From Bdellovibrionales bacterium RIFCSPHIGHO2_01_FULL_40_29 (GTDB lineage: Bacteria; Bdellovibrionota; Bdellovibrionia; Bdellovibrionales; Bdellovibrionaceae): a DNA stretch of 64,000 nucleotides. The translations under genes were made by a program, and so were the position numbers. A model generated the notes under the pieces. The model did no database searches and had not been told where the DNA came from. It was given only the letters and a program-made list of their open reading frames with translations. The DNA lies in NCBI GenBank assembly GCA_001771815.1, contig MEPU01000007.1, positions 1 through 64,000 of the forward strand. The letters are read 5' to 3'. Below, in pieces: positions 1,226 to 29,242 of the stretch (positions are counted from its first letter, which is position 1; each line of letters starts with the position of its first letter).

Positions 1226-2233
1226 ATGAGTCGAGTGGTTTTTGCATTGTGGGTCGCATTTATGGTTGTTGGCGTTTACGTGAACGCTGCTGAATCAACG
1301 TTGATTAAGTCGGATGGTTCCAGCACGGTTTATCCTATCACGGAAGCCATGGCTGAAGAGTTTCAAGCACTGAAAAAGAATACAGTTAAAGTGACTGCCG
1401 GTATTTCTGGAACGGGTGGCGGTTTTAAAAAGTTTTGTCGTGCTGAAACGGATATGCAAAATGCATCTCGTCCAATCACGACTTCTGAAATGGCAGATTG
1501 TAAAAAAACAGGCGTGAAGTATTTTGAATTGCCGATTGCTTACGATGCAACAGTGGTTGCAGTAAATATGAAAAACAATTGGGTGAGCGAAATTTCAGTG
1601 GCCGATTTGAAAAAGATTTGGGAGCCGGCAGCTCAAGGTAAAATTATGAAATGGAATCAAATCAATCCAGCTTGGCCAGATGCTGAATTTAAGTTATATG
1701 GTGCGGGTTCTGATTCTGGAACGTTTGATTATTTTACTGAAGCCATCGTTGGTAAATCTAAATCATCACGTGGTGATTACACGGCTTCTGAAGATGACAA
1801 CACCCTGATCAAAGGGATCGCTGGCGATAAGTTTGCGATTGGTTATGTGCCGATGAGCTATTATATGGAAAATAAGAAAACCTTGAAGGCATTGGCTATC
1901 ATTGGTGGCGAAAAAGCGCCTTCAAAAACAGGTGTGCTTCCATCTAAAGAAACTGTTGAAAATAGCACGTATTATCCATTGTCGCGTCCGCTATTTATAT
2001 ATGTGAATGAGGCTTCTGCAAAACGCCCTGAAGTGAAAGAATTTGTTCAGTTCTACTTGGCAAACTCAGCAAAGCTTGTTCCTGAGGTCAAGTATGTGGC
2101 GCTTCCACCGAAGGCTTATGAGATGGCAAAAGGTCATTTCAATAAAGGTCGGTTAGGATCTGTTTTTAACTCTAAGGAATCTCATGTTGGGTTGAAAATT
2201 GAAGATCTTTTGAAAAAAGAAACTGCAATGTAA
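1226..2233 (+). CDS. pstS: Periplasmic phosphate-binding protein PstS
   Basis: A 335-residue solute-binding protein with an N-terminal signal peptide (hydrophobic residues 4-21, cleavage near VNAAE). Phosphate-contacting segments of the PstS family are present: SDGSSTVYPI near residue 29, SGTGGGFKKF near 60, NASRPI near 78 and GSDSGTFDYF near 164. It captures phosphate in the periplasm for the PstCAB transporter. The start has AAAGGAG 6 bases upstream. No pstC, pstA, pstB or phoU lies nearby, so the permease must be elsewhere. No convincing Pho box was found in the 190-base leader. Confidence 0.93.
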   Translation: MSRVVFALWVAFMVVGVYVNAAESTLIKSDGSSTVYPITEAMAEEFQALKKNTVKVTAGISGTGGGFKKFCRAETDMQNASRPITTSEMADCKKTGVKYFELPIAYDATVVAVNMKNNWVSEISVADLKKIWEPAAQGKIMKWNQINPAWPDAEFKLYGAGSDSGTFDYFTEAIVGKSKSSRGDYTASEDDNTLIKGIAGDKFAIGYVPMSYYMENKKTLKALAIIGGEKAPSKTGVLPSKETVENSTYYPLSRPLFIYVNEASAKRPEVKEFVQFYLANSAKLVPEVKYVALPPKAYEMAKGHFNKGRLGSVFNSKESHVGLKIEDLLKKETAM

Positions 2234-2234
2234 T

Positions 2235-3626
2235 TTACGAGTTCTGACTGTTAATGATGTGGCGCTGCAAAGTCCACAAACGGATGGATTTCAAAAATTC
2301 ATCCTTCATTCCAAATAAAATCAACTGGTGATAAAATGTTTTATCACCACGAGGTTTTTCATCCACAAAGTGAACTTTGGCCTTCATTTCTTTGAGTAAG
2401 CCTTCGTCCTCCTGAGTGAGTGCAATATCCATCATGGTATCCAGCGGGATTTGACTCATCAGTTTAAAGCCAATTGCAGCCTCGGAGTACTCGTCAATTT
2501 CAATAAGAGTTGAAAGTAGTAGTGGTTCTTCAAATGCGATTGTGATCATTGGTGCTGGATCTTTTTCTTTCATCAGTGGAAAGAGTTCTTTTACAAATTT
2601 AACTAAGATGGCCTTATCAAGAGGCTTTTCCAGGCGCACGGTATCGAATGCAAAGCGTTCTTCAAGCTCTGAACGTTTGATGGGCTTGTTCGTGATAAAG
2701 TGAATAATGGTCATGCCAGATTCAAACTGATTGTCTAATTGGCGCTTGTCCATGGGAACATCGGTGATTAGCAAGTCGACTTTGGCGCGACCTTTCAGAT
2801 CTTTTTTTTCAACGAAAGAGATGTCTTCAAAATTTCGCTGTAAAAGATCAGTAACAATGGCATTTTGACCTTCATCGGTCAGGTTGATGCAAATCACAAG
2901 TTTCATGAGGGGGGAAGTGCTGCGTCCTGTCCAGACTGCATTTCGAATTTTAGTTTGGGCCGCAACAATTTTTTTGCGAATTGAACCCAATGTTACTGGA
3001 TTGAGCTGTGCAAATAAAAGTTCGTACGAAGACTCATTCTCTGAAACCACGCGACCCCAGATGTGCTGCTGTTTATTGTTGGAAAATAGGGGGTGATAGA
3101 ATTTGTAAACCTCACCCAGTGTCAGTGGTAAGGTCTTGTCAATTTTTAATCCAAATTCCGTTAGTTGTAGAGATTTTAATTTTTTAAGTGATTCGATTTC
3201 CGCTTTGGCTGCAGTGGTGTGGACGTACTCGGTTTGAACTTTTTGATTTTTTAAAATGGCAAAACGAGTATGTTCTTTTAAAATAGTATTATCAAAGGGT
3301 TTGAACAATAAATTTTGAACGGGCCAGGTGTCGGCTATTTTCGTGTATCGTGGATCATCAAAAAGGGTCACCAAGACATCACACGAGTACTTTTCTTTGA
3401 GGGCATTGATTGTATCTACAGGGTTGGTTGAAATGGCCTCAGCTTGAATGATCAGTAGAGCTACGACTTGGTTGAGTTTATCGGGTTTGTCCCATTCGGT
3501 TTTAAATGACTTGAGATCATTGAAGATGAGTAATTTATGACTAATGGACTTCGACAAATCGCCCCATGCCTCATTAATGTCTTTAATGGTCTTTGGGTCA
3601 GATTCAATAGCTATGATATAACTCAT
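2235..3626 (-). CDS. Degenerate receiver-domain protein
   Basis: A 463-residue cytoplasmic protein without signal peptide. Residues 1-120 look like a response-regulator receiver fold: an acidic pair after the first strand (IAIESD), a late LFKPFD strand holding the conserved lysine, and alternating strands and helices. The phospho-acceptor aspartate is missing where expected (VVALLIIQAEA), so this is probably a pseudo-receiver. The middle (about 240-350) again has a strand-helix pattern with LLITDVPMDK and may be a second receiver-like unit. The last 100 residues are unassigned; a PilZ-like fold is possible but not demonstrated. It is convergent with pstS, one base apart. Confidence 0.6.
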   Translation of the reverse strand: MSYIIAIESDPKTIKDINEAWGDLSKSISHKLLIFNDLKSFKTEWDKPDKLNQVVALLIIQAEAISTNPVDTINALKEKYSCDVLVTLFDDPRYTKIADTWPVQNLLFKPFDNTILKEHTRFAILKNQKVQTEYVHTTAAKAEIESLKKLKSLQLTEFGLKIDKTLPLTLGEVYKFYHPLFSNNKQQHIWGRVVSENESSYELLFAQLNPVTLGSIRKKIVAAQTKIRNAVWTGRSTSPLMKLVICINLTDEGQNAIVTDLLQRNFEDISFVEKKDLKGRAKVDLLITDVPMDKRQLDNQFESGMTIIHFITNKPIKRSELEERFAFDTVRLEKPLDKAILVKFVKELFPLMKEKDPAPMITIAFEEPLLLSTLIEIDEYSEAAIGFKLMSQIPLDTMMDIALTQEDEGLLKEMKAKVHFVDEKPRGDKTFYHQLILFGMKDEFLKSIRLWTLQRHIINSQNS

Positions 3627-3655
3627 GTCTTAAAGTTTACATGAGTCGTAAACAT

Positions 3656-3760
3656 CTACCAACCAGTTTTTCGTCTCTTTTTACGACGAGACAAATCCAG
3701 TGTTATTGCTGTCGATGGTGTCTCAACTGTCTCACTGTTTTTCTTTAGATTTGCGTCCAT
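3656..3760 (-). CDS. Small basic protein of 34 residues (unannotated small ORF)
   Basis: The reverse strand holds a 34-codon ORF beginning MDANLKKNSE and ending in a strongly basic tail (SRRKKRRKTGW), stop TAG. An AAGGAC Shine-Dalgarno sequence sits 6-7 bases before the ATG. It lies 29 bases upstream of the pseudo-receiver gene on the same strand, so the two may be cotranscribed. The charge pattern suggests nucleic-acid or membrane binding, but the function is unknown. Evidence for translation is only the ribosome-binding site and composition. Confidence 0.5.
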   Translation of the reverse strand: MDANLKKNSETVETPSTAITLDLSRRKKRRKTGW

Positions 3761-4086
3761 ATTTTGTCCTTTTTAGGGGGTGTCTAGCAACTTCTGCAAC
3801 TTACTACGAGGGCCTTTTGAGGACTAGGCTAGTTTTGGAAAATTAAGAAGATACATAAAAACTTTCAGGGCAAGCATTTTAGAAAAGAAGAGCTACGTGT
3901 TATATTTTTGCGCAGCGGCAATAGCCACTAAGTTTGGCACTGTCAATTTATTTTGACGTCATATTTGGCGATTTTGTGATTCCGCCATTATTCATAACAG
4001 AATCTTCATTATTTAATTCTTGCATGATTCCCCCAAGCTAGGATGAAATGGATTCAAGTTTTAGTTTACGATTCTTGGAGGGGTCC
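3761..4086. other. Intergenic region, divergent promoters
   Basis: About 325 bases without a gene between the small ORF (left) and the secreted HNH nuclease (right). It holds short symmetric stretches such as GTCAATTTATTTTGAC near 3940-3955 and TGACGTCA next to it. It presumably carries the promoters of both neighbours; no repeat, RNA gene or recognisable riboswitch was seen. Confidence 0.4.
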
Positions 4087-4902
4087 TTGATCCGTTACTT
4101 TTTGTATTTCACATTTGTATTTCAGTCCGTCTGCCTAGCCAGTTCGGTTCCTGTTTCAGATGTGTTGGCTACTGTTACCGCCGCAGATAGGGTGTTGGGG
4201 CGCGAAGATTTTAATTATTCTGATTATTATCAAATTAAAGATTTTATCGAGGGGAGCACTGTTAATTTACTGAACCTTGAGCATGTCCGGCAGAAGTTTC
4301 CGCAACCGAGTGTTCCCTATAATCGCCGAGCCCAATTTGGAACATGGATTGACCCCACACATGATGATTCGTGTTTAAATACTCGAGATTTGGTTTTAGC
4401 GCGCGATTCAGAATCCAATGTGACTTATAAGCCTTCGGGGTGTTCGGTTCAGGAAGGGGTTTGGGAAGATCCCTATTCGGCGACAACATTTCAATCTCCA
4501 ACGGAGCTTCATATCGATCATTTTGTTCCATTAAAGAATGCCTATATGACTGGAGCCCATTCATGGTCTGCAAAGAAGCGATGTCTTTACACGAATTACA
4601 TGGGAAATAATTTTCATCTGATCGCCGTAAGTAGTCGCGAAAATATGTCCAAAGGGGACGGATCGCCGTTTAAGTATATCCCAAAAAATGAAAAGTACGT
4701 TTGTCAGTATATCAAACAGTGGCTTCAGGTAAAAATCATTTGGAGCCTGCTGCTGACGCCGAAAGAGGTTGATGCAATTCAAAAAGTTTCTGAAGCCCAT
4801 AAGTGCAACCCCAAGCAATTTAAGATGTCAGCAACTGATTTAGCAGCTCAGCGTCGCTATATGTACGAAAATGAGAACTACTGTTCACATCTTGCCAACT
4901 AG
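4087..4902 (+). CDS. Secreted HNH endonuclease (DUF1524-like)
   Basis: A secreted nuclease of the HNH/DUF1524 type. The metal-finger motif is clear: ELHIDHFVPLKNA, then the GNNFHLIAVS strand, then ENMSKGD, giving the H-D-H...N...H/N...N-K-D order of this family. Such proteins cut DNA outside the cytoplasm. The longest ATG frame begins at 4048, but a TTG at 4087 is preceded by GGAGGGG at 5 bases and places a hydrophobic signal peptide (IRYFLYFTFVFQSVCLAS) right at the N terminus, so I prefer 4087 (271 residues). It fits a secreted nucleic-acid-degrading set together with the EEP nuclease near 14-15.7 kb. Confidence 0.8.
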   Translation: MIRYFLYFTFVFQSVCLASSVPVSDVLATVTAADRVLGREDFNYSDYYQIKDFIEGSTVNLLNLEHVRQKFPQPSVPYNRRAQFGTWIDPTHDDSCLNTRDLVLARDSESNVTYKPSGCSVQEGVWEDPYSATTFQSPTELHIDHFVPLKNAYMTGAHSWSAKKRCLYTNYMGNNFHLIAVSSRENMSKGDGSPFKYIPKNEKYVCQYIKQWLQVKIIWSLLLTPKEVDAIQKVSEAHKCNPKQFKMSATDLAAQRRYMYENENYCSHLAN

Positions 4903-19536: not shown

Positions 19537-21786
19537 GTGGGACATCTTTCTGATTTAATTCTTGATTTGGGTTTAATATTAATGGCTGCCGCCATTGTGA
19601 CACTGATTTTTAAAAAGCTTAAACAGCCCGTTGTTCTGGGTTATTTGATTGCGGGATTTTTTGTTGGGCCTCACTTTGGTTGGTTGCCTTCCGTTAAAGA
19701 TATTTCCAGTATTACGATCTGGGCTGAGATTGGTGTTATTTTTATGCTTTTTGGTTTGGGCTTAGAGTTTAGTTTTAAAAAACTATCTCAAGTCGGGAAA
19801 AGTGCTTCGATTACAGCCAGCTATGAAATTCTTTTTATGTTGGGTGCGGGTTATTCGGTCGGTCAAATTTTAGATTGGTCCAAAATGGACAGCTTGTTTT
19901 TGGGGGGAATTCTTTCTATTTCTTCGACGACAATTATCGTGCGGGCGTTTGAAGAATTGAATCTGAAAGGCAAGGGTTTTGTTTCTTTAGTTTTTGGAGT
20001 TTTGATTGTCGAAGATTTGTTGGCTATTTTGCTTTTGGTTTTACTTTCGTCTGTTGCTGTGACACAGACCTTGTCCGGAGCTGAGTTGGGTTTTTCAGCT
20101 CTGCGATTGGCTTTTTTCTTGGTGGTTTGGTTTTTACTAGGGATTTATATTTTACCGGTTTTTTTACGTCAGTTTAAGGATTATCTTTCGGATGAAACCA
20201 TGTTGATCGTGTCATTGGGGTTGTGTCTGATGATGGTTATCATTGCCAGTAAAGTGGGATTTTCTCCGGCACTCGGTGCCTTTATCATGGGATCCATTCT
20301 AGCAGAAACACCAAAAGGCCATCGTGTCGAACAGTTGATTCTGCCGGTGAAGAATTTATTTTCAGCAGTCTTTTTTGTTTCGGTGGGAATGATGTTGGAT
20401 ATGAAGGTGATGGCCGAGTATTATCCCATTATTTTGTTGTTAACTGTGGTGACGATTATCGGTAAATTCCTGAGCACGACAGTGGGGTCAATAATTTCTG
20501 GTCGTAGTTTAAAAAACTCTGTTCAAGCGGGTATGAGTTTAGCCCAAATTGGTGAGTTCTCTTTTATCATTGCAACACTGGGGATGACTTTAAAAGTCAC
20601 CAGTGGATTTCTTTATCCGATCGCAGTGGCTGTGTCAGCATTAACAACTTTGACAACTCCTTATTTGATTCAGCTCTCGGATCCTTTTTATAGTTGGATC
20701 GAAAAAAAATTGCCATCATCAGTCAAGGACACTTTGGCTGTTTATGAAACGGCAATGTCGACGAATTCAGAAGAAAATGTATTATCCCTTTTGTGGCGTG
20801 AGTATGGAATTAAAATTGTGCTTAATTCAATTGTTGTGATAGCTATTACATTGGGTATCTATCATTTTATTTTGCCAATCATCGGTGGAAGAATTGGTAT
20901 TGAGGCTCCGATTGATTTGATTGCTTGCGGGTTGGCTTTGATTCTGACGGCTCCTTTTTTGTGGGCTGTTGCGGTAGGGGGGCCGGCGCATACAGCTGTA
21001 TACCGAGTCACAACGGCTGAACAATTGCGTAAATTGCAAATTGGGATATCAATTTTTCGTTTTATTTTGGGGACGCTGCTTGTTGGATTTATTGTGATGC
21101 GATTCACCTCAATCTTGGCCATTTCAGGAATTGTTTTAGTTGCATTTGCCGGTCTTGGAGCCTTGATCTTTAGTCGTTTTTCAGAACCTATATACCACCG
21201 TATTGAAAGTCGATTTATTTCGAATCTCACTCAGAATGAACGCGACGCTATGGCAAAAAATAAACCTGTTGCTAAACTGGCTCCATGGAATGCCGTATTG
21301 GCAGAGTATACGATGACGGCTTATTCTCCATTAATTGCAAAAACATTACAGCAATCTCAAATCAAAGAAGAGTATGGGATTACTGTGGCTATGATTGAGC
21401 GCGGTGAGCAACGTATTTTAGCTCCGACCCGTGATGTGCTTTTGCTACCTAATGATAAATTATTTTTAATTGGAACTGATGAACAGTTGATGCAAATCAA
21501 AGAGGTCATAGAACGTCAAGCGACTGCGGAGGCCCTGCCTCCGGTTTTGGGATCATTTGGTTTAACCTCGTTGACGTTGCTTCCCACAGATCCCTTTGTA
21601 AATAAACCCATCCGCGAGTGTGGCCTGCGAGAGGCCGTGAATGGGTTGATCGTCGGTATCGAGCGCGAGGGCGAACGTATTTTAAGTCCAGACTCGGCCA
21701 TGCACTTGTTGCCACGGGATTTAGTTTGGATTGTGGGCGATAAAGATCTTATTCGTGATCTTCACTCGACCGTGGTTTCGAGTTAG
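19537..21786 (+). CDS. KefB-like monovalent cation:proton antiporter with two TrkA-C domains
   Basis: A 749-residue CPA2-family antiporter. The first about 400 residues hold 12-13 membrane segments with family motifs (KKLKQPVVLGYLIAGFFVGP, GLGLEFS, FSPALGAFIMG). Further membrane helices follow around 420-560, and two RCK_C/TrkA-C ligand-binding domains end the protein (about 575-660 and 670-749, each with an LLPxD turn). There is no RCK_N nucleotide-binding domain, unlike classic KefB/KefC. It exchanges K+ or Na+ for protons across the inner membrane. Translation starts at GTG without a strong Shine-Dalgarno sequence. The stop overlaps the convergent ROK gene by 4 bases. Confidence 0.9.
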   Translation: MGHLSDLILDLGLILMAAAIVTLIFKKLKQPVVLGYLIAGFFVGPHFGWLPSVKDISSITIWAEIGVIFMLFGLGLEFSFKKLSQVGKSASITASYEILFMLGAGYSVGQILDWSKMDSLFLGGILSISSTTIIVRAFEELNLKGKGFVSLVFGVLIVEDLLAILLLVLLSSVAVTQTLSGAELGFSALRLAFFLVVWFLLGIYILPVFLRQFKDYLSDETMLIVSLGLCLMMVIIASKVGFSPALGAFIMGSILAETPKGHRVEQLILPVKNLFSAVFFVSVGMMLDMKVMAEYYPIILLLTVVTIIGKFLSTTVGSIISGRSLKNSVQAGMSLAQIGEFSFIIATLGMTLKVTSGFLYPIAVAVSALTTLTTPYLIQLSDPFYSWIEKKLPSSVKDTLAVYETAMSTNSEENVLSLLWREYGIKIVLNSIVVIAITLGIYHFILPIIGGRIGIEAPIDLIACGLALILTAPFLWAVAVGGPAHTAVYRVTTAEQLRKLQIGISIFRFILGTLLVGFIVMRFTSILAISGIVLVAFAGLGALIFSRFSEPIYHRIESRFISNLTQNERDAMAKNKPVAKLAPWNAVLAEYTMTAYSPLIAKTLQQSQIKEEYGITVAMIERGEQRILAPTRDVLLLPNDKLFLIGTDEQLMQIKEVIERQATAEALPPVLGSFGLTSLTLLPTDPFVNKPIRECGLREAVNGLIVGIEREGERILSPDSAMHLLPRDLVWIVGDKDLIRDLHSTVVSS

Positions 21787-22688
21787 TCAGTTATTGTTTC
21801 TTGCGCAAGAGCCCAAGCTCCATACAAAGCTGGATTTGAAAGAGTCGTCAGAGCTATTTGAGGCACAGGTTGCTTCCGTTCAGTGCACCATTTTGAAAGC
21901 AGACTGAAAGTGTTATCAAGAAAATAGGAAGCTGCATTTGTGAAACCTCCGGCGAGTACAAAATTTTGAGATTCAAAAACTAAATTTAAATTATAAATAA
22001 ATTGAGCTAAATGAAGTGAATACAAGTTGAACTGTTTCATAACGATAGGGTCCTGTAAGGAAGCCATTTTTAAAATATCTAACATGGAGATTTCGGGTTG
22101 AAAAAGCAGTTCACGGGTTTTAGTTAAAAAATGTGAGCCTGCAATATAACCCTCTGCACACCCTGCGTTTCCACAAGCGCACCAGGTTTCAAGGGCCTGT
22201 GAATTTAAAATCTGATGTCCGATTTCGGGGTGTTGATTTTGACTCGTTCGAAATATTTTTCCATTATTAATAATTCCAACACCTAAACCTGTGCCCAGAG
22301 CAATCATAGCAAGTGATTGTTTGCCTTTGAATTGACCGACTTTGAATTCGCCCATCACGGCACTTGCGGCATCATTTTCTAGAGCGACTGGAATATTCAG
22401 AAGTTTGCTCATTTCTTCTTGAATGGGAGCATGGCCCCAATTTAAATTTGTTGGATTTTGAAGTTTTCCAGATTGGGTGTCTAGCGGTCCAGCGCAAGCA
22501 ATTCCGCAAGACTGAATATTAGGATAGAGACGAAGATAATCGTTCGCCAAAATTTCCAAAGCGGCTTTCCCATGGTTCCAAGAACTTGTTGGTGTTGGAA
22601 CAGTTTTTTGATTTAGGAGGGTTCCTGTGGCATCAATGACTGCAGCTTGAATTTTTGTGCCACCAATATCAAAACAAAGAGTCTGCAT
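21783..22688 (-). CDS. ROK-family sugar kinase
   Basis: A roughly 300-residue ROK kinase. Seen: the N-terminal ATP-binding FDIGGTKIQ, the catalytic ENDAAS loop, GTGLGVGII, EIGHQIL, and the zinc motif CACGNAGC. The zinc motif and lack of a DNA-binding domain favour a glucokinase or fructokinase. In the trehalose operon the probable role is to phosphorylate glucose released by trehalase. The frame is open to a TTG at 22736 inside the MarR gene; possible ATG starts are 22727, 22703 and 22688, none with a strong ribosome-binding site, and a 7-bp hairpin lies just ahead. Confidence 0.88.
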   Translation of the reverse strand: MQTLCFDIGGTKIQAAVIDATGTLLNQKTVPTPTSSWNHGKAALEILANDYLRLYPNIQSCGIACAGPLDTQSGKLQNPTNLNWGHAPIQEEMSKLLNIPVALENDAASAVMGEFKVGQFKGKQSLAMIALGTGLGVGIINNGKIFRTSQNQHPEIGHQILNSQALETWCACGNAGCAEGYIAGSHFLTKTRELLFQPEISMLDILKMASLQDPIVMKQFNLYSLHLAQFIYNLNLVFESQNFVLAGGFTNAASYFLDNTFSLLSKWCTERKQPVPQIALTTLSNPALYGAWALAQETITD

Positions 22689-23097
22689 TAAAAGAGCTTT
22701 CATTGTGCGTTTGGTTGAGACTTTCATAAATCTCAACTAATGGTCCAAAATTAAGTCCTCCAAAATTTTTTTCTAAAATGGGAATCAAATTATCCAAGCG
22801 TTTTTTTCCTTCACGCGAGAGCATCAGAATTTTTTTTCTAAGATCCTTGGGATCTGATGCAATAAAAATACACTTCTTTTTTTCTAGTCGCTTTAGTATT
22901 TGAGTCAGCGAGCTTGGTTGCATCGAAAGAGAATTGGCTAAAGTCTGAGCTGTACACCCTGGAAGATCTTTGAGCTTTCCCAATACCACCCACTGCATTA
23001 AACTCAGATCATAATCTTTTTCAAACTCTAGGTTAAGATCTTGAAGTTTGCGTGCAATCGAAATCAAATTAGACAGGCCGGTTGAGTCAAAGTTCAC
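22669..23097 (-). CDS. MarR-family transcriptional regulator
   Basis: A 142-residue winged-helix protein. Helices LMQWVVLGKLKDLPG and CTAQTLANSLSMQPSSLTQILKRLEKK give the helix-turn-helix, followed by the wing DPKDLRKKILMLS. It lies inside the otsA-otsB-ROK operon, overlapping otsB by 4 bases (ATGA), so it probably autoregulates this operon. The ligand is unknown. Confidence 0.88.
   Translation of the reverse strand: MNFDSTGLSNLISIARKLQDLNLEFEKDYDLSLMQWVVLGKLKDLPGCTAQTLANSLSMQPSSLTQILKRLEKKKCIFIASDPKDLRKKILMLSREGKKRLDNLIPILEKNFGGLNFGPLVEIYESLNQTHNESSFNADSLF
22714..22737 (-). promoter_or_regulatory. Hairpin near the ROK kinase start
   Basis: GTTGAGA (22714-22720) and TCTCAAC (22731-22737) form a 7-bp stem with a 10-base loop. 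On the reverse strand it lies 11 bases ahead of the ATG at 22703, at the end of the marR coding region, and could tune translation of the kinase. Confidence 0.35.
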
Positions 23098-23861
23098 TTG
23101 TTTTTCTCCGCATTGAGTTGGACTATTTTTTTTAATAGCAAAGTGATTTCACTTTGACGTTCTAAAAAATACTTTGCATGTGAAAGTTTCTTTTTTCCAA
23201 TTCGAACACTAAAAATACGTTCATCAGGCAAACTAAAAATATCTTCATCAGTATCATCATCGCCAACATACAATGCTCGAGTGGCGCCGGTTTCAAGCAT
23301 CAATTCCATTAATGCAATACCCTTATGAGGTGCTCCCATGGGAATCAAATTCAATACCGATTTACCCATAATTAGTCGCGGTGAATTCTCGAGTGTGCTG
23401 ACTATTTGAAGGAGCTGACTTTTGGCTTCTTTTTTGCGTCGACACTTACGATAGTGAAGGGCTAAAGAAAATATTTTATCCTCAACTTCAATTCCATCGA
23501 TAGGGTTGCTTTCAAGTATTGATTCAAAATGCTCTTTCCATTGGGCGGTAATTCCTTGAGCTTTTTTTATTCTGTTGGCTTGAGATTTTAATCCTTCGAG
23601 TCCATGGTTTCCGACAGTAAACTTCACTGAATCGGGAAGTCGTGTATTCAAATCATCACGGCTTCGGCCAGAAATAACAGCAACAGGGACTAGTGCGCAA
23701 ATTTTTTTCAATAGACTTTCAGTCTGTGAATTCATGTTTGCGGCACCCGGATCTCGAACAATCTTTGCCAGTGTCCCATCAAAATCAAAAGCATAAAGAG
23801 TCTTTGTGAATGAAAGAGCTTCTAAAAGTTTAAGTGGTGTTGTTCCTAAAAAATGTTTCAT
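23094..23861 (-). CDS. otsB: Trehalose-6-phosphate phosphatase
   Basis: A 255-residue HAD-superfamily phosphatase. Motif I is DFDGTLA (Asp26 nucleophile, Asp28), motif II VISGRS, and the last motif GDDDTDEDIF binds Mg2+. These are diagnostic of OtsB, which removes phosphate from trehalose-6-phosphate. It overlaps otsA by 4 bases upstream and marR by 4 bases downstream, so synthesis is coupled. Confidence 0.95.
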   Translation of the reverse strand: MKHFLGTTPLKLLEALSFTKTLYAFDFDGTLAKIVRDPGAANMNSQTESLLKKICALVPVAVISGRSRDDLNTRLPDSVKFTVGNHGLEGLKSQANRIKKAQGITAQWKEHFESILESNPIDGIEVEDKIFSLALHYRKCRRKKEAKSQLLQIVSTLENSPRLIMGKSVLNLIPMGAPHKGIALMELMLETGATRALYVGDDDTDEDIFSLPDERIFSVRIGKKKLSHAKYFLERQSEITLLLKKIVQLNAEKNK

Positions 23862-26062
23862 AGCGAGGGGAATAATGGGTTAGAGAATTTTCCGCGCTTG
23901 CGCATACGAGCGGCATCAAGCAGCATGCGTCCAGCCCAGCGAAAGACATTGTACTCTTGAATATAGAATCGCATGCTTTTCATGCGAGCCACTTGTTCAG
24001 GTACAGGCATCACTAAGGCCAGTCGAATTGCTTCAGCACATTGATCAATATTATAAGGATTGACCACAATGGATTCAACAAGCTCTTTTGCAGCGCCAGC
24101 AAATTGACTGAGAATAAGAACGCCATTGTTATCATCTCTTGCAGCAATAAATTCTTTAGCGACAAGATTCATTCCATCGTGAAGGCTGCTGACAAAGCAA
24201 AAATCAGCAGCTCTGAAGTAGGTTGTAACTTCGAAAGGTTGATGATGTCGCACGCGAAGGGTAATCGGCTTGTATGTTTTGCTGCCAAATTTTTGATTGA
24301 TTCGAGCGGCTTCTTTTCGAACAATGTTTTCGAAATTTTGGTACTCAGCAATCGACGAACGAGACGGGGCACCAATTTGAACAAAGCAGAGTTTCCCGAG
24401 GAGTGTTGAATCAATTTCTAAAAGTCGTTCCACAGCATAAAATCGCTCAAGAATACCTTTTGTGTAATCCAAACGATCAACACCGATTCCAATTTTAGCA
24501 TCAAAGGGCAGTTGATTGTCTTGGCAGACCTGCAGGCGGCAAAGTGGTATAGTGGGTTGTTTGTTTAAATCTTTAAGCGGCCATTCGATAGAGATGGGGT
24601 AATTGCGAACAGCTGTTTTTGAACCGTTATAAGAAATAGTTGAAGTGTCGCGATCAATTCGACTTTCTAAGAAACGATCAACTGTGTCAGTAAAATTATT
24701 GCAATGAAAACGAGTGTGAAATCCCAGAATATCGCTTCCAAGAAGTCCATCTAGAATACGTTCTCGCCATGGACAAATTCCAAAGGCTTCGGGATTAGGC
24801 CAGGGAATATGCCAAAAAGTAATGACTGTTGCATTGGGTAATTTTTCTTTGATGAGGCGAGGAACCATTGCTAGGTGGTAGTCTTGGACCAAAATGACAG
24901 GGTCTTCTGTTTTACACTCTTCGATGACGGCATTGGCAAATTTTTCATTAACTGCTAAATAACATTTCCAATCATCGCTCCGAAAAATAGGACGTGTGTG
25001 AGCGATGTGACAAAGTGGCCATAGACCTTCATTTGAAAAACCATAATAGTAGCCAAGCTCTTCTTCTTTAGTTAGCCAAACTCGCTTTAAATTATAAGAT
25101 GGATTTTCGGGAGGCACTTGAACAATTTGCGAACTGTCTACGACGTCAGCGTCAGCAGTGCCACTGCCATGCGCAACCCATGTTCCGCTGCAAGCGCGCA
25201 TGACGGGTTCAAGTGCTGTGACTAAACCGCTTGCGGGACTTTGAATTTCAATTTTGTTGTCGTGATGCATGTGAATATAGGGTTCTCGGTTTGAAACAAT
25301 AATGACTTCTTCGCCGGCAAGATCATTTTTTAGAACGTCACGCAGTGTTTGAGCTGACCAACTGATTTGGGCTTCATCGCGACTGAAGTGTTCACGATCA
25401 CGAAATAATGTACGAATTTCGCGAACAATGGGGCGTAGTTCGGGTGCAACATTTCGAATATCTGGTCGATGTATTGTGAGCATAGAACGAATTCCTTTGA
25501 TCCACCCCAACCAACTCAGTTGTGCAATAAGAACTGTTAGGACTGAGATCACTAAAGCAAGAAGAATAAAAAATAGAAACACGTAGTTCTTGGTATCTGC
25601 GGTTCGTCGTTGTACAAAACTCATGTCATGAACTAAAATAAGATAGGACCCTTGAGAGCCAATCAAGGCATATGAAACATGCAGCGGACCAGAGGCGAAT
25701 TCTAAAATTTTTGGACGGAGTTCTGATGTTTGTACCAAAGTAACACAGCGGATAGTTGTAGGCATTTGTGGAGAAGCAATCATTTCTGAATTATTAGCAC
25801 CACAATACGCAATGGCAAAAAGTCGTTCATCTTGTGTTGCTCGCGAAAATAAGTCCTTTAAGCGTAACTTTTGCTGCGCTGAGTTTTGTATTTCTGTTGA
25901 GAGGACTGCTTCGCTGAGAGTATTGGCGACTAAAGAGGAGCGAATTTCCAAATCTCGTGAAAACCATTTAAGGGTTAATTTATCTATAAGAGGCACTGTG
26001 AAATAGGCAACAAAACTCAGGGTTAGAATTAAGGGCAAAATAAAACGTAATGATAATCGCAT
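23858..26062 (-). CDS. otsA: Membrane-anchored trehalose-6-phosphate synthase
   Basis: A 734-residue fusion. Residues 1-28 and 160-181 are membrane helices flanking a 130-residue extracytoplasmic loop, followed by a HAMP-like linker, as in sensor kinases. Residues about 252-730 form a GT20 synthase: VSNREPY, GSGTAD, QDYHLAMVP, FWHIPWPNPE, GVDRLDYTKGI (UDP-glucose site) and DGMNLVAKEF. The usual WxGW motif is replaced by WVAHGSGTAD. OtsA joins UDP-glucose and glucose-6-phosphate. The N-terminal part suggests control by a periplasmic signal such as osmolarity. First gene of the operon otsA-otsB-marR-ROK. Confidence 0.9.
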   Translation of the reverse strand: MRLSLRFILPLILTLSFVAYFTVPLIDKLTLKWFSRDLEIRSSLVANTLSEAVLSTEIQNSAQQKLRLKDLFSRATQDERLFAIAYCGANNSEMIASPQMPTTIRCVTLVQTSELRPKILEFASGPLHVSYALIGSQGSYLILVHDMSFVQRRTADTKNYVFLFFILLALVISVLTVLIAQLSWLGWIKGIRSMLTIHRPDIRNVAPELRPIVREIRTLFRDREHFSRDEAQISWSAQTLRDVLKNDLAGEEVIIVSNREPYIHMHHDNKIEIQSPASGLVTALEPVMRACSGTWVAHGSGTADADVVDSSQIVQVPPENPSYNLKRVWLTKEEELGYYYGFSNEGLWPLCHIAHTRPIFRSDDWKCYLAVNEKFANAVIEECKTEDPVILVQDYHLAMVPRLIKEKLPNATVITFWHIPWPNPEAFGICPWRERILDGLLGSDILGFHTRFHCNNFTDTVDRFLESRIDRDTSTISYNGSKTAVRNYPISIEWPLKDLNKQPTIPLCRLQVCQDNQLPFDAKIGIGVDRLDYTKGILERFYAVERLLEIDSTLLGKLCFVQIGAPSRSSIAEYQNFENIVRKEAARINQKFGSKTYKPITLRVRHHQPFEVTTYFRAADFCFVSSLHDGMNLVAKEFIAARDDNNGVLILSQFAGAAKELVESIVVNPYNIDQCAEAIRLALVMPVPEQVARMKSMRFYIQEYNVFRWAGRMLLDAARMRKRGKFSNPLFPSL

Positions 26063-26120: not shown

Positions 26121-27899
26121 ATGTATAATTATGGACTTATCGGAAACTGTCAAATCGCTGCTTTAGTTAACAAAAGTGCCTCGATCGATTGGCTTTGCTT
26201 GCCGCGTCCAGATAGCCCTCCGGTATTTGGAAAATTGCTTGATCCCGATGGTGGAGAGTTCTCGCTGACGTTGGATAATCAACAAAGTGCTGAGCAACGA
26301 TACTTGCCGAATACAAATATTTTAGAAACTATTTTGAAGGATCAATCAGGAGCTTCCGTACGAATTTTGGATTTTTGTCCGAGATTTTCGCAGTATGGCA
26401 GGACCTTTCGCCCACAATCTTTATTTCGAATTGTTGAACCGCTATTAGGGACGGCAATGCTTAAAGTGCGATGTGTTCCGATCTCTGGATGGGATAAGCA
26501 AGCAGCTCGAATGGTGCGAGGGAATAGTCATTTGCGTTTTGATATTCGTGGTGAGAGTTTACGCCTGACAACAAATATGTCGCTGACTTATTTGATTGAT
26601 CAAATTTCAATTCCAGTCAGCGAAAAAATTTATTTTGCTCTGACTTGGGGCGGAGGTATTGACGAAGATCTGAGTGAAGTCAGCGAACGCTTTTATAGAA
26701 ATACTTTACAGTACTGGCGGCATTGGGTGCAGCACTGCTCTATTCCGACTTTGAATCAGAAACAAACCATTCGTTCAGCACTTATTTTAAAATTGCATTG
26801 CTATGAAGATACCGGAGCGATCCTGGCAGGTCTTACAACCAGTTTACCTGAAGAGTTCGGGGGCGAGCGCAATTGGGATTATCGATTGTGTTGGCTTAGA
26901 GACTCCTATTTTGTTTTATCGGCATTTCATCAGCTGGGTCATTTTGAAGAGATGGAAGGGTTTTTAAAGTATTTGACTCAATTGGCTCTCAAAATTTCAC
27001 CTGAAGATGATCGATTGCGGCCGGTGTATAAATTGGATCAGTCATGGTCACTTCCTGAAGAGAGCTTAGAGAATTGGGAGGGGTATCGAAACTCAAAACC
27101 TGTTCGACAAGGGAATCAGGCGGCGGAGCATGTGCAGAACGACGTTTATGGTGAAATGATTTTGACATTGGCACCTATATTTTTTGATGAGCGTTTTGAT
27201 CATTTACGAACTCAAGAAACGCAAAATTTAATGATACGCTTGGCGGCATTAGCTGCAGCCAGCATCAGTAAACCAGATGCTGGCTTATGGGAATTGCGCA
27301 ACGGTTGGAAGGAGCATTCTTTTACAAACTTAATGTCTTGGGCGGGACTTGAGCGCATTACACGCATTCAAAATTTGGGTTATTTAAAAGACTCGACATT
27401 TCCATTTCAAGAGCATCTTGATCGAGCTGAAAAATCAATTTATGCATCCGTGGTTGATGGTTCATTGCGAAATGGACCCAAGGATTCGAGTTTTGACTCT
27501 GCATTGCTTCAGCTTCCTCTTATTCGTTTTCCTGATAAAGAGCTTGCCTTGAAGACTGTTCATTCAGTTTCTGAAAGTTTAATTTTTAAATCTAAAGACG
27601 AGGAGTTTCCATCATTTTTATATAGGTATTCCCGCAAGGATGATTTTGGTGAACCCAAGTCCTCATTTCTAATTTGTTCTTTTTGGTTGGTGCAAGCATT
27701 TGTCGAAGTTGGTGAACTCGAAAAAGCCAAACAGGTCATGGCAGATTTGCAAAAATCAGCCAATAATTTGGGGTTGTATTCTGAACATTTTTGCCCACGA
27801 ACAAATACGCAAAGTGGAAATTTTCCACAAGCGTATTCGCATGTTGGTCAAATTTTAGGAGCATTTGCGATTAGCCCTCCATGGAAGGAAATCCTTTAA
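26121..27899 (+). CDS. GH15-family glycoside hydrolase, trehalase-like
   Basis: A 592-residue protein of glycoside hydrolase family 15. The N-terminal trehalase-type domain begins YNYGLIGNC and SIDWLCLPRPDSPPVFG; the catalytic barrel carries GGERNWDYRLCWLRD (about 247-261), the hallmark of this family. Close relatives hydrolyse trehalose or alpha-glucans. No signal peptide, so it acts in the cytoplasm. It is divergent from the trehalose synthesis operon with 58 bases between, which favours trehalose as substrate and suggests shared control. Confidence 0.9.
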   Translation: MYNYGLIGNCQIAALVNKSASIDWLCLPRPDSPPVFGKLLDPDGGEFSLTLDNQQSAEQRYLPNTNILETILKDQSGASVRILDFCPRFSQYGRTFRPQSLFRIVEPLLGTAMLKVRCVPISGWDKQAARMVRGNSHLRFDIRGESLRLTTNMSLTYLIDQISIPVSEKIYFALTWGGGIDEDLSEVSERFYRNTLQYWRHWVQHCSIPTLNQKQTIRSALILKLHCYEDTGAILAGLTTSLPEEFGGERNWDYRLCWLRDSYFVLSAFHQLGHFEEMEGFLKYLTQLALKISPEDDRLRPVYKLDQSWSLPEESLENWEGYRNSKPVRQGNQAAEHVQNDVYGEMILTLAPIFFDERFDHLRTQETQNLMIRLAALAAASISKPDAGLWELRNGWKEHSFTNLMSWAGLERITRIQNLGYLKDSTFPFQEHLDRAEKSIYASVVDGSLRNGPKDSSFDSALLQLPLIRFPDKELALKTVHSVSESLIFKSKDEEFPSFLYRYSRKDDFGEPKSSFLICSFWLVQAFVEVGELEKAKQVMADLQKSANNLGLYSEHFCPRTNTQSGNFPQAYSHVGQILGAFAISPPWKEIL

Positions 27900-28513: not shown

Positions 28514-29242
28514 ATGCGTCGACTGATTTTTTTTACACTTCTTATAATTACAAATATGTCAGTGGCCACTTCGTCGATACCAGATGATATCTGCAGCTCT
28601 CGAAATGATCCTGCTCGTAATTTGAATATGTATGAAAAAGTAGTTCATTGGTTTTTTGAACCAAAAGGTATCAGTGTTCAGGAGGCCAAGTTTATTGCGA
28701 ATCATCCGCAAATTGCCAAAGAGTTAAAAGAATTTGGTGAAATTTCAAGTGCTCATGCCCATATTTTTTGTCAACCGCGACTTCGTAAAAATAAATCTGA
28801 TCTTGAAAATTCAGAAGCCGATGCTTTGAGGCATTTTGTATTTTCAACATTGGCCGTGTATTTTCACGGTGAAAAGGGATCTCAATTTTTGATGGCTCAC
28901 GAGATCAAGGGCGGACACACATTAACTCGAGATGATGCGATGGATTTTACAAATAATCGACACGGAGAGCAATTCGCGAATGAGCTTCTTCAGCAGAAGA
29001 ACAAACTCACTAAAGAAGAGGTCAGTTATCGTGCCCTTGACAGAGGTGTGCAGTTACTGCGGAAAGGTCAGTTATCTTTGATTGAGAAAGTGCGGGCTGG
29101 GCCTTGTAAAAACCTAACCTCAAAAAAAGGGTCTGATCTTCGGAATCTTATCGAATCGCATCGAAAAAGTTTCGATAAAACTCTTCAAGTATGCCTTGAA
29201 AAAGGCCGCGGTTACGCCATGTGTGGCGTTCGTTCGCGTTGA
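28514..29242 (+). CDS. Secreted protein of unknown function
   Basis: A 242-residue exported protein (signal cleaved near VATSS). The core has ADALRHFVFSTL, MAHEIKGGHT and AMDFTNNRHGEQFA; this arrangement of D-x-x-R-H, A-H-E and M-D-x-x-N-N-x-x-G resembles domains listed as DUF6973 and hints at a metal or active-site cluster. I cannot assign an activity. An inverted repeat shared with two other secreted orphans of the window lies upstream. Confidence 0.65.
   Translation: MRRLIFFTLLIITNMSVATSSIPDDICSSRNDPARNLNMYEKVVHWFFEPKGISVQEAKFIANHPQIAKELKEFGEISSAHAHIFCQPRLRKNKSDLENSEADALRHFVFSTLAVYFHGEKGSQFLMAHEIKGGHTLTRDDAMDFTNNRHGEQFANELLQQKNKLTKEEVSYRALDRGVQLLRKGQLSLIEKVRAGPCKNLTSKKGSDLRNLIESHRKSFDKTLQVCLEKGRGYAMCGVRSR

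Follow-up and report, generated by a model that had tools for sequence, protein, structure and literature searches.

Bacterial transmembrane receptors are known whose outputs act by modifying proteins or by producing messengers. In the input half of the kinase WalK (YycG), an extracytoplasmic PAS/Cache domain lies between two membrane helices and is followed by a HAMP domain, while in DgcN/YfiN and other Cache/PAS-HAMP diguanylate cyclases the receptor carries an enzyme instead of a kinase, its product being a second messenger and not a bulk metabolite. Among trehalose enzymes, the OtsA of Arthrobacter is tied to osmotic sensing through trehalose-6-phosphate levels and self-assembly, with no fused receptor domain (PMC5685639). 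The msc-gt-tpsp operon of Thermoproteus tenax ties trehalose synthesis to a putative mechanosensitive channel gene, the proteins being separate and the synthase being activated by a partner glycosyltransferase (PMC3634074). A literature search, which covered few subscription journals, found no published membrane or HAMP-linked trehalose-6-phosphate synthase, and the words transmembrane, HAMP and membrane-bound are absent from the accessible part of a 2024 review covering such enzymes.

The window analysed here (the whole stretch of 64,000 nucleotides from contig MEPU01000007.1 of Bdellovibrionales bacterium RIFCSPHIGHO2_01_FULL_40_29) encodes a protein that resembles WalK in its input half and differs from it in its output, which is a GT20 domain: Pfam found neither HisKA nor HATPase_c in the window synthase, and GT20 alone downstream of the N-terminal part. 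Two invariant periplasmic cysteines in its core family also set it apart from WalK. It shares the GT20 catalytic fold and the listed substrate residues with Escherichia coli OtsA, which has no N-terminal extension, is only ~33% identical and belongs to a separate clade. The fused OtsA-OtsB proteins of Bdellovibrionota relatives (L012-L019, L021) belong to the same GT20 trehalose pathway and occur in the same organism families, but they have no membrane N terminus, carry a C-terminal phosphatase, are ~30% identical and fall in a different clade. We consider it quite likely that the protein described here works as a one-component transmembrane receptor whose output is a biosynthetic enzyme, the GT20 glycosyltransferase.

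Layout of the synthase and its neighbourhood

The open reading frame has the coordinates and length that an earlier note on this DNA had given, and the other elements of that description, namely two membrane helices around a loop of about 130 residues with GT20 after the N-terminal part, were found again by hydropathy (helices at residues 8-26 and 161-179, loop of ~134 residues) and by Pfam (PF00982 over residues 252-716, 390.6 bits against a cut-off of 32.5). The features of the locus are as follows.

23858..26062, minus strand: sensor-GT20 fusion (candidate receptor-type trehalose-6-phosphate synthase), 734 aa; open reading frame, full-length conservation, AlphaFold2 pLDDT 85
25985..26041, minus strand: membrane helix 1, residues 8-26; hydropathy peak 2.19, within a continuous AlphaFold2 helix 2-57
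25583..25984, minus strand: periplasmic sensor domain, residues 27-160, predicted PAS/Cache fold; AlphaFold2 pLDDT 88, structural matches
25802..25804, minus strand: Cys87; conserved in 87/87
25745..25747, minus strand: Cys106, presumed disulfide partner of Cys87; conserved in 87/87
25526..25582, minus strand: membrane helix 2, residues 161-179; hydropathy peak 3.25
25367..25525, minus strand: probable degenerate HAMP-type relay, residues ~180-232; HHalign through divergent members, PF00672 below cut-off in L139
25313..25366, minus strand: connector helix with invariant W235, L240, L244, L248 and G250; conservation and AlphaFold2
23915..25309, minus strand: GT20 catalytic domain, residues 252-716; PF00982 E 1.3e-116, OtsA substrate residues
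23094..23861, minus strand: OtsB-type trehalose-6-phosphate phosphatase; PF02358 E 1.2e-27, TIGR00685 above cut-off
22669..23097, minus strand: MarR-family regulator; PF01047
21783..22736, minus strand: ROK-family sugar kinase, likely a glucokinase; PF00480 E 2e-53
26121..27899, plus strand: GH15/TREH_N trehalase-like enzyme; PF00723, PF19291

The N terminus and the segment after membrane helix 2 are both net positive, which assigns the loop to the outer and the enzyme to the inner side of the membrane, and helices at places equivalent to 8-26 and 161-179 are seen by hydropathy in 86 of 87 aligned sequences. The 2.93-Mb genome has no GT20 gene other than that of the window synthase. Its stop codon overlaps the start of otsB by 4 nt (ATGA), otsB in turn overlaps the MarR gene by 4 nt (GTGA), and the GH15 gene, which matches the archaeal trehalase model with E 1.6e-86 while staying under that model's cut-off, diverges from the synthase gene at 58 bp from its start. 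At 97 loci of the family, many of them shortened by contig ends, otsB-like genes were counted 84 times and GH15 genes 67 times, which makes a role in trehalose metabolism likely. The rarer neighbours (MarR 13, ROK 11, MscS 8 and CPA2 antiporter 3 of the 97, as raw counts with no background comparison) hint at osmotic physiology.

Three further observations concern gene surroundings. A cation/proton antiporter-like gene, so named by its look, lies at 19537-21786 (plus strand) of the window and converges on the trehalose operon, and a similar gene stands beside the divergent member L134. In the divergent subgroup, genes for LysR-like regulators (helix-turn-helix by look) adjoin the sensor-GT20 gene at L133 (1611-2552, minus strand), L136 (4440-5366, minus strand) and L138 (1843-2745, minus strand). 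At 28514-29242 (plus strand) the window encodes a secreted-looking protein of 242 aa in which DUF6973 is just below its cut-off (25.8 against 27 bits).

Conservation and selection

A single-protein search of contigs from one genome per species confirmed at least 583 candidate stretches, and the best 80 of these relatives align with the window protein end to end, from residue 1-3 to residue 709-730, at 50-61% identity; other GT20 proteins with the same N terminus, which the earlier note had suggested looking for, are thus plentiful. As labelled, they come from seven phyla (Pseudomonadota, Bdellovibrionota, Nitrospirota, Acidobacteriota, Gemmatimonadota, Thermodesulfobacteriota and Myxococcota). 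By profile search, the N-terminal module turned up in 49 of 369 genomes of the window's phylum, in 25 of 300 genomes from the order of a Herbaspirillum genome and in 24 of 247 from the phylum of a Geobacter genome; in the latter two sets, a few matches among the weakest are something other than GT20 fusions. The open frames that hold the strong matches measure, with few exceptions, 730-830 aa, which is the size of the fusion.

In 87 aligned sequences, the loop has a median pairwise identity of 41% against 67% for the catalytic part, and 16 of its columns are conserved at 95% or more. W33, D37, R80, C87, C106, D146 and R153 are identical in all 87 and R41 in 86; every loop contains exactly two cysteines, with the C-x18-C spacing in 86/87. 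With omega values of 0.02-0.26 in 14 close pairs, the synthase loop is under purifying selection. The earlier note had held that its reading would fall if the loop were unconserved, or if the fusion were a gene-call artefact with a strong internal start near residue 240; the figures above speak against the former, and as to the latter, the window synthase gene lacks a start-type codon between codons 195 and 256. Codon 194 is indeed an ATG, and AAAGGA precedes it by 9 nt; a start codon with such a motif is present at this position in only 3 of the 87 sequences. On the strength of the full-length alignment of the best 80 relatives, the conservation of helices and loop and this survey of internal starts, we rejected a gene-call artefact.

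The predicted sensor domain

The AlphaFold2 model of the N-terminal part, built from 39 sequences (pLDDT 88), shows helices at residues 2-57 and 62-78, then a sheet (strands 83-87, 94-96, 118-122, 125-134 and 139-146), and then helices at 148-197 and 207-232. A long N-terminal helix and an antiparallel sheet between two membrane helices are what characterizes a PAS/Cache domain, and the structure prediction that had been proposed for this part therefore gives an extracytoplasmic domain of this fold. A Foldseek search of the PDB ranked a WalK model at the top (E 2.3e-5), followed by the domains of McpH and CitA. VIA-align gave a Z score of 13.2 for WalK over 181 residues (residues 1-184, rmsd 3.1), and scores of 11.9 for the WalK crystal domain, 10.5 for DctB and 10.2 for CitA; the top WalK entry is itself an integrative model, and the match to the crystal domain carries more weight.

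Sequence comparisons point to the same receptors, with NCBIfam matches that are all far under the whole-protein cut-offs of the models, as expected for one domain. The WalK kinase model matches the divergent member L175 over residues 3-199 (E 1.3e-6) and L139 over residues 2-234 (E 7.3e-5), running through the HAMP. The leading matches of the 39 core members are to CztS/SilS/CopS kinases in 12 (best 2.4e-4), to DgcN/YfiN in 4 (best 5.2e-6), and to WalK and AtoS in 3 each. No named Pfam Cache or CHASE family exceeded its cut-off in the window protein and 39 relatives, CHASE4 appearing in 6/39 (best E 9e-4); sCache_3_2 reached E 0.034 in L175, below its cut-off, and the N-terminal profile searched against PDB sequences returned a single chance match (E 0.43). 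A weak match to Adeno_E3B in 29/39 spans membrane helix 2 and was set aside as an effect of composition.

Across 916 genomes, the sensor profile was found almost exclusively in GT20 fusions. The other matches were few and weak (E 2e-4 to 7e-3); they comprise a HAMP-PAS-GGDEF protein (L171), a histidine kinase (L172), two dCache-PAS-GGDEF-EAL proteins (L168, L169) and the unrelated-looking L170 and L173. Cys87 and Cys106 probably form a disulfide that staples the sensor, although this would not be essential to the design, since the Thermodesulfobacteriota forms L175-L177 are without the pair. These three (L175 at 2080-4368, plus strand; L176 at 1505-3865, plus strand; L177 at 2080-4464, minus strand) are divergent sensor-GT20 proteins with a more canonical HAMP. 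The N termini of L158 and L160-L163 make up a second divergent GT20 set with two helices and a wider cysteine spacing, mostly missed by profile A1.

Linker and connector helix

The linker was described in the earlier note as HAMP-like, and this holds as homology traced through divergent members, while by Pfam PF00672 was not found above its threshold in the window synthase or in 39 core members. Readable HAMP versions occur in divergent members such as L139 (SRPIEQISHAIRSVLSGDFSKLG...EFAPLVRNIDKVVREL), whose linker reaches E 0.0026 and 18.5 bits against a cut-off of 25, and L175 (VHPIARMADWMKSL...FEPLAREATRMVRSI). When the linkers were compared by HHalign with the HAMP domains of the window's genome and two others, the divergent members aligned over 51 columns, in register behind membrane helix 2, with a probability of 92.3% (E 5.5e-7), and all members pooled gave 15% (E 0.0017); none of 150 column shuffles reached the score in either case. 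The core linker alone gave probabilities of 3-5%, the match becoming convincing only after the divergent members were added, and residues 186-226 are of low confidence in the full-length AlphaFold2 model, which is that of a monomer. We conclude from these comparisons that the linker is a HAMP descendant, degenerate in the window's group.

The connector that follows is conserved, with W235, L240, L244, L248 and G250 invariant in 39/39. Its helix leads, in the AlphaFold2 model, straight into the first GT20 strand, just before R259, the counterpart of OtsA R9. In mycobacterial OtsA, the active-site loop beside the region of this strand moves by up to about 12 Å on closing (PMC6879718), so that a control helix would be well placed at the first strand, if the strand is so used.

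Catalytic domain and its relatives

Using the lists of OtsA substrate residues from PMC1769515 and PMC6879718, we found R9, G22, Y76, W85, D130, H154, R262, K267, R300, D361 and E369 of OtsA (ten published substrate residues and K267) identical in the window protein and in 62/62 clade members. Where OtsA reads WFGWSGE, the clade has WIAHGSG (AHGSG for GWSGE in E. coli OtsA), with OtsA W38 kept as W295 and His298 standing at W41 in 62/62. This histidine is at or beside Trp40, a listed glucose-6-phosphate contact, the published numbering being ambiguous. The protein fell short of the TIGR02400 OtsA equivalog cut-off in NCBIfam (402.5 bits against 564.85), and the glucosylglycerol model, also below its cut-off, gave 291 bits. 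In the catalytic-domain tree, sensor-bearing, one-helix and soluble forms make up one group against OtsA and OtsAB (support 100/99). Judged by sequence, then, the clade is a separate GT20 subfamily outside the curated OtsA equivalog, given its His298 mark, the NCBIfam scores below cut-off and the tree support. The output is likely an osmolyte, in view of the retained OtsA residues and of the otsB and trehalase-like genes next to the synthase gene.

Several relatives have lost the loop and kept one membrane helix (L135, L155, L156 and Aminobacter L178). The losses in L135, L155 and L156 are separate in the tree, L135 lying in the window's own subgroup beside the sensor-bearing L137. Soluble relatives are L151-L154 and L167, with L151-L153 sitting within a sensor-bearing group. 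As some relatives are one-helix or soluble, the sensor can in places be dispensed with. L154/L167 and L165/L166 branch early, which allows the first member to have been with or without the sensor. A GT20 protein of another arrangement, L020 (755 aa), occurs in the window's genus (genome G002); its HAD-type phosphatase-like part comes first and GT20 last, the reverse of the order in the OtsAB of relatives.

Discussion

The reading of this layout as a sensor kinase whose kinase was replaced by a synthase, put forward before, is supported by fold, sequence, HAMP homology and selection on the loop; its further claim of direct control comes from the anatomy, which suggests that an extracytoplasmic signal probably switches trehalose production directly. 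In such a mechanism, the periplasmic PAS/Cache sensor between the two membrane helices would detect an extracytoplasmic condition, and the change would travel through membrane helix 2, the degenerate HAMP relay and the connector helix to the first GT20 strand, which ends at the arginine equivalent to the OtsA glucose-6-phosphate contact, ahead of the mobile active-site loop. Synthesis of trehalose-6-phosphate would be raised or lowered without a transcription step, the co-translated OtsB would complete trehalose, and the divergently encoded GH15 enzyme and the ROK kinase could recycle it. Osmotic or envelope stress is the most plausible signal, a preference that comes from the product alone, and osmotic control of the synthase is a reasonable guess. 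Since the fold matches include sensors of citrate, urea, metals and amino acids, the signal could equally be a chemical ligand, and the invariant loop residues could not be placed in a pocket that would point to one.

Other roles for the N terminus have to be weighed against that of a receptor. It might only hold the synthase to the inner membrane, close to channels or transporters, with a sensor-like domain that no longer signals. The core group has a degenerate HAMP, and L135, L155 and Aminobacter L178 have swapped the loop for a single helix while keeping the connector helix, as an anchor would permit; an anchor would nevertheless have no need of a Cache fold, of two universal cysteines or of a low omega maintained across phyla, and we regard this role as rather unlikely. 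Signalling might also run in reverse, as in LapD, the state of GT20 (with substrate or trehalose-6-phosphate bound) being sent outward to a periplasmic partner. Such a relay is symmetric in principle, the fold matches include the periplasmic domain of a LapD ortholog (4u64, Z 9.2) and the Arthrobacter OtsA moonlights as a stress reporter (PMC5685639). Yet the intact catalytic residues show that the protein is not a dead receptor, and a count of genes at the loci, confined to the listed families, brought no conserved gene for a periplasmic partner to notice, which makes outward signalling improbable.

An alternative of another kind is that the GT20 domain uses a different acceptor and makes a glucosyl phosphate other than trehalose-6-phosphate. 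The clade-wide His298 near a glucose-6-phosphate contact and the scores of both NCBIfam models below cut-off would fit this, but the remaining glucose-6-phosphate contacts R9, Y76, W85 and R300 are kept in 62/62, the OtsA model scores higher, at 402 bits, than the glucosylglycerol model, at 291, and an OtsB-type phosphatase is found at 84/97 loci and GH15 at 67/97, leaving a different product with a very small chance.

For the receptor with a trehalose-6-phosphate synthase as output, the evidence leans, by a little, towards a widespread and undescribed class, in which an extracytoplasmic sensor gates a glycosyltransferase and controls a compatible solute without a kinase, a second messenger or transcription. 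If so, the committed step of compatible-solute synthesis would itself be the receptor output. The cell would have a quick path from its envelope to an osmoprotectant, and outside sensing could be tested directly, with product formation reporting the state of the receptor. The loop-less natural variants, one-helix or soluble, are ready-made controls for such work. L135 (3522-5309, minus strand), a close relative from the same order with one helix and no sensor loop, has kept otsB and GH15 and offers a natural control.
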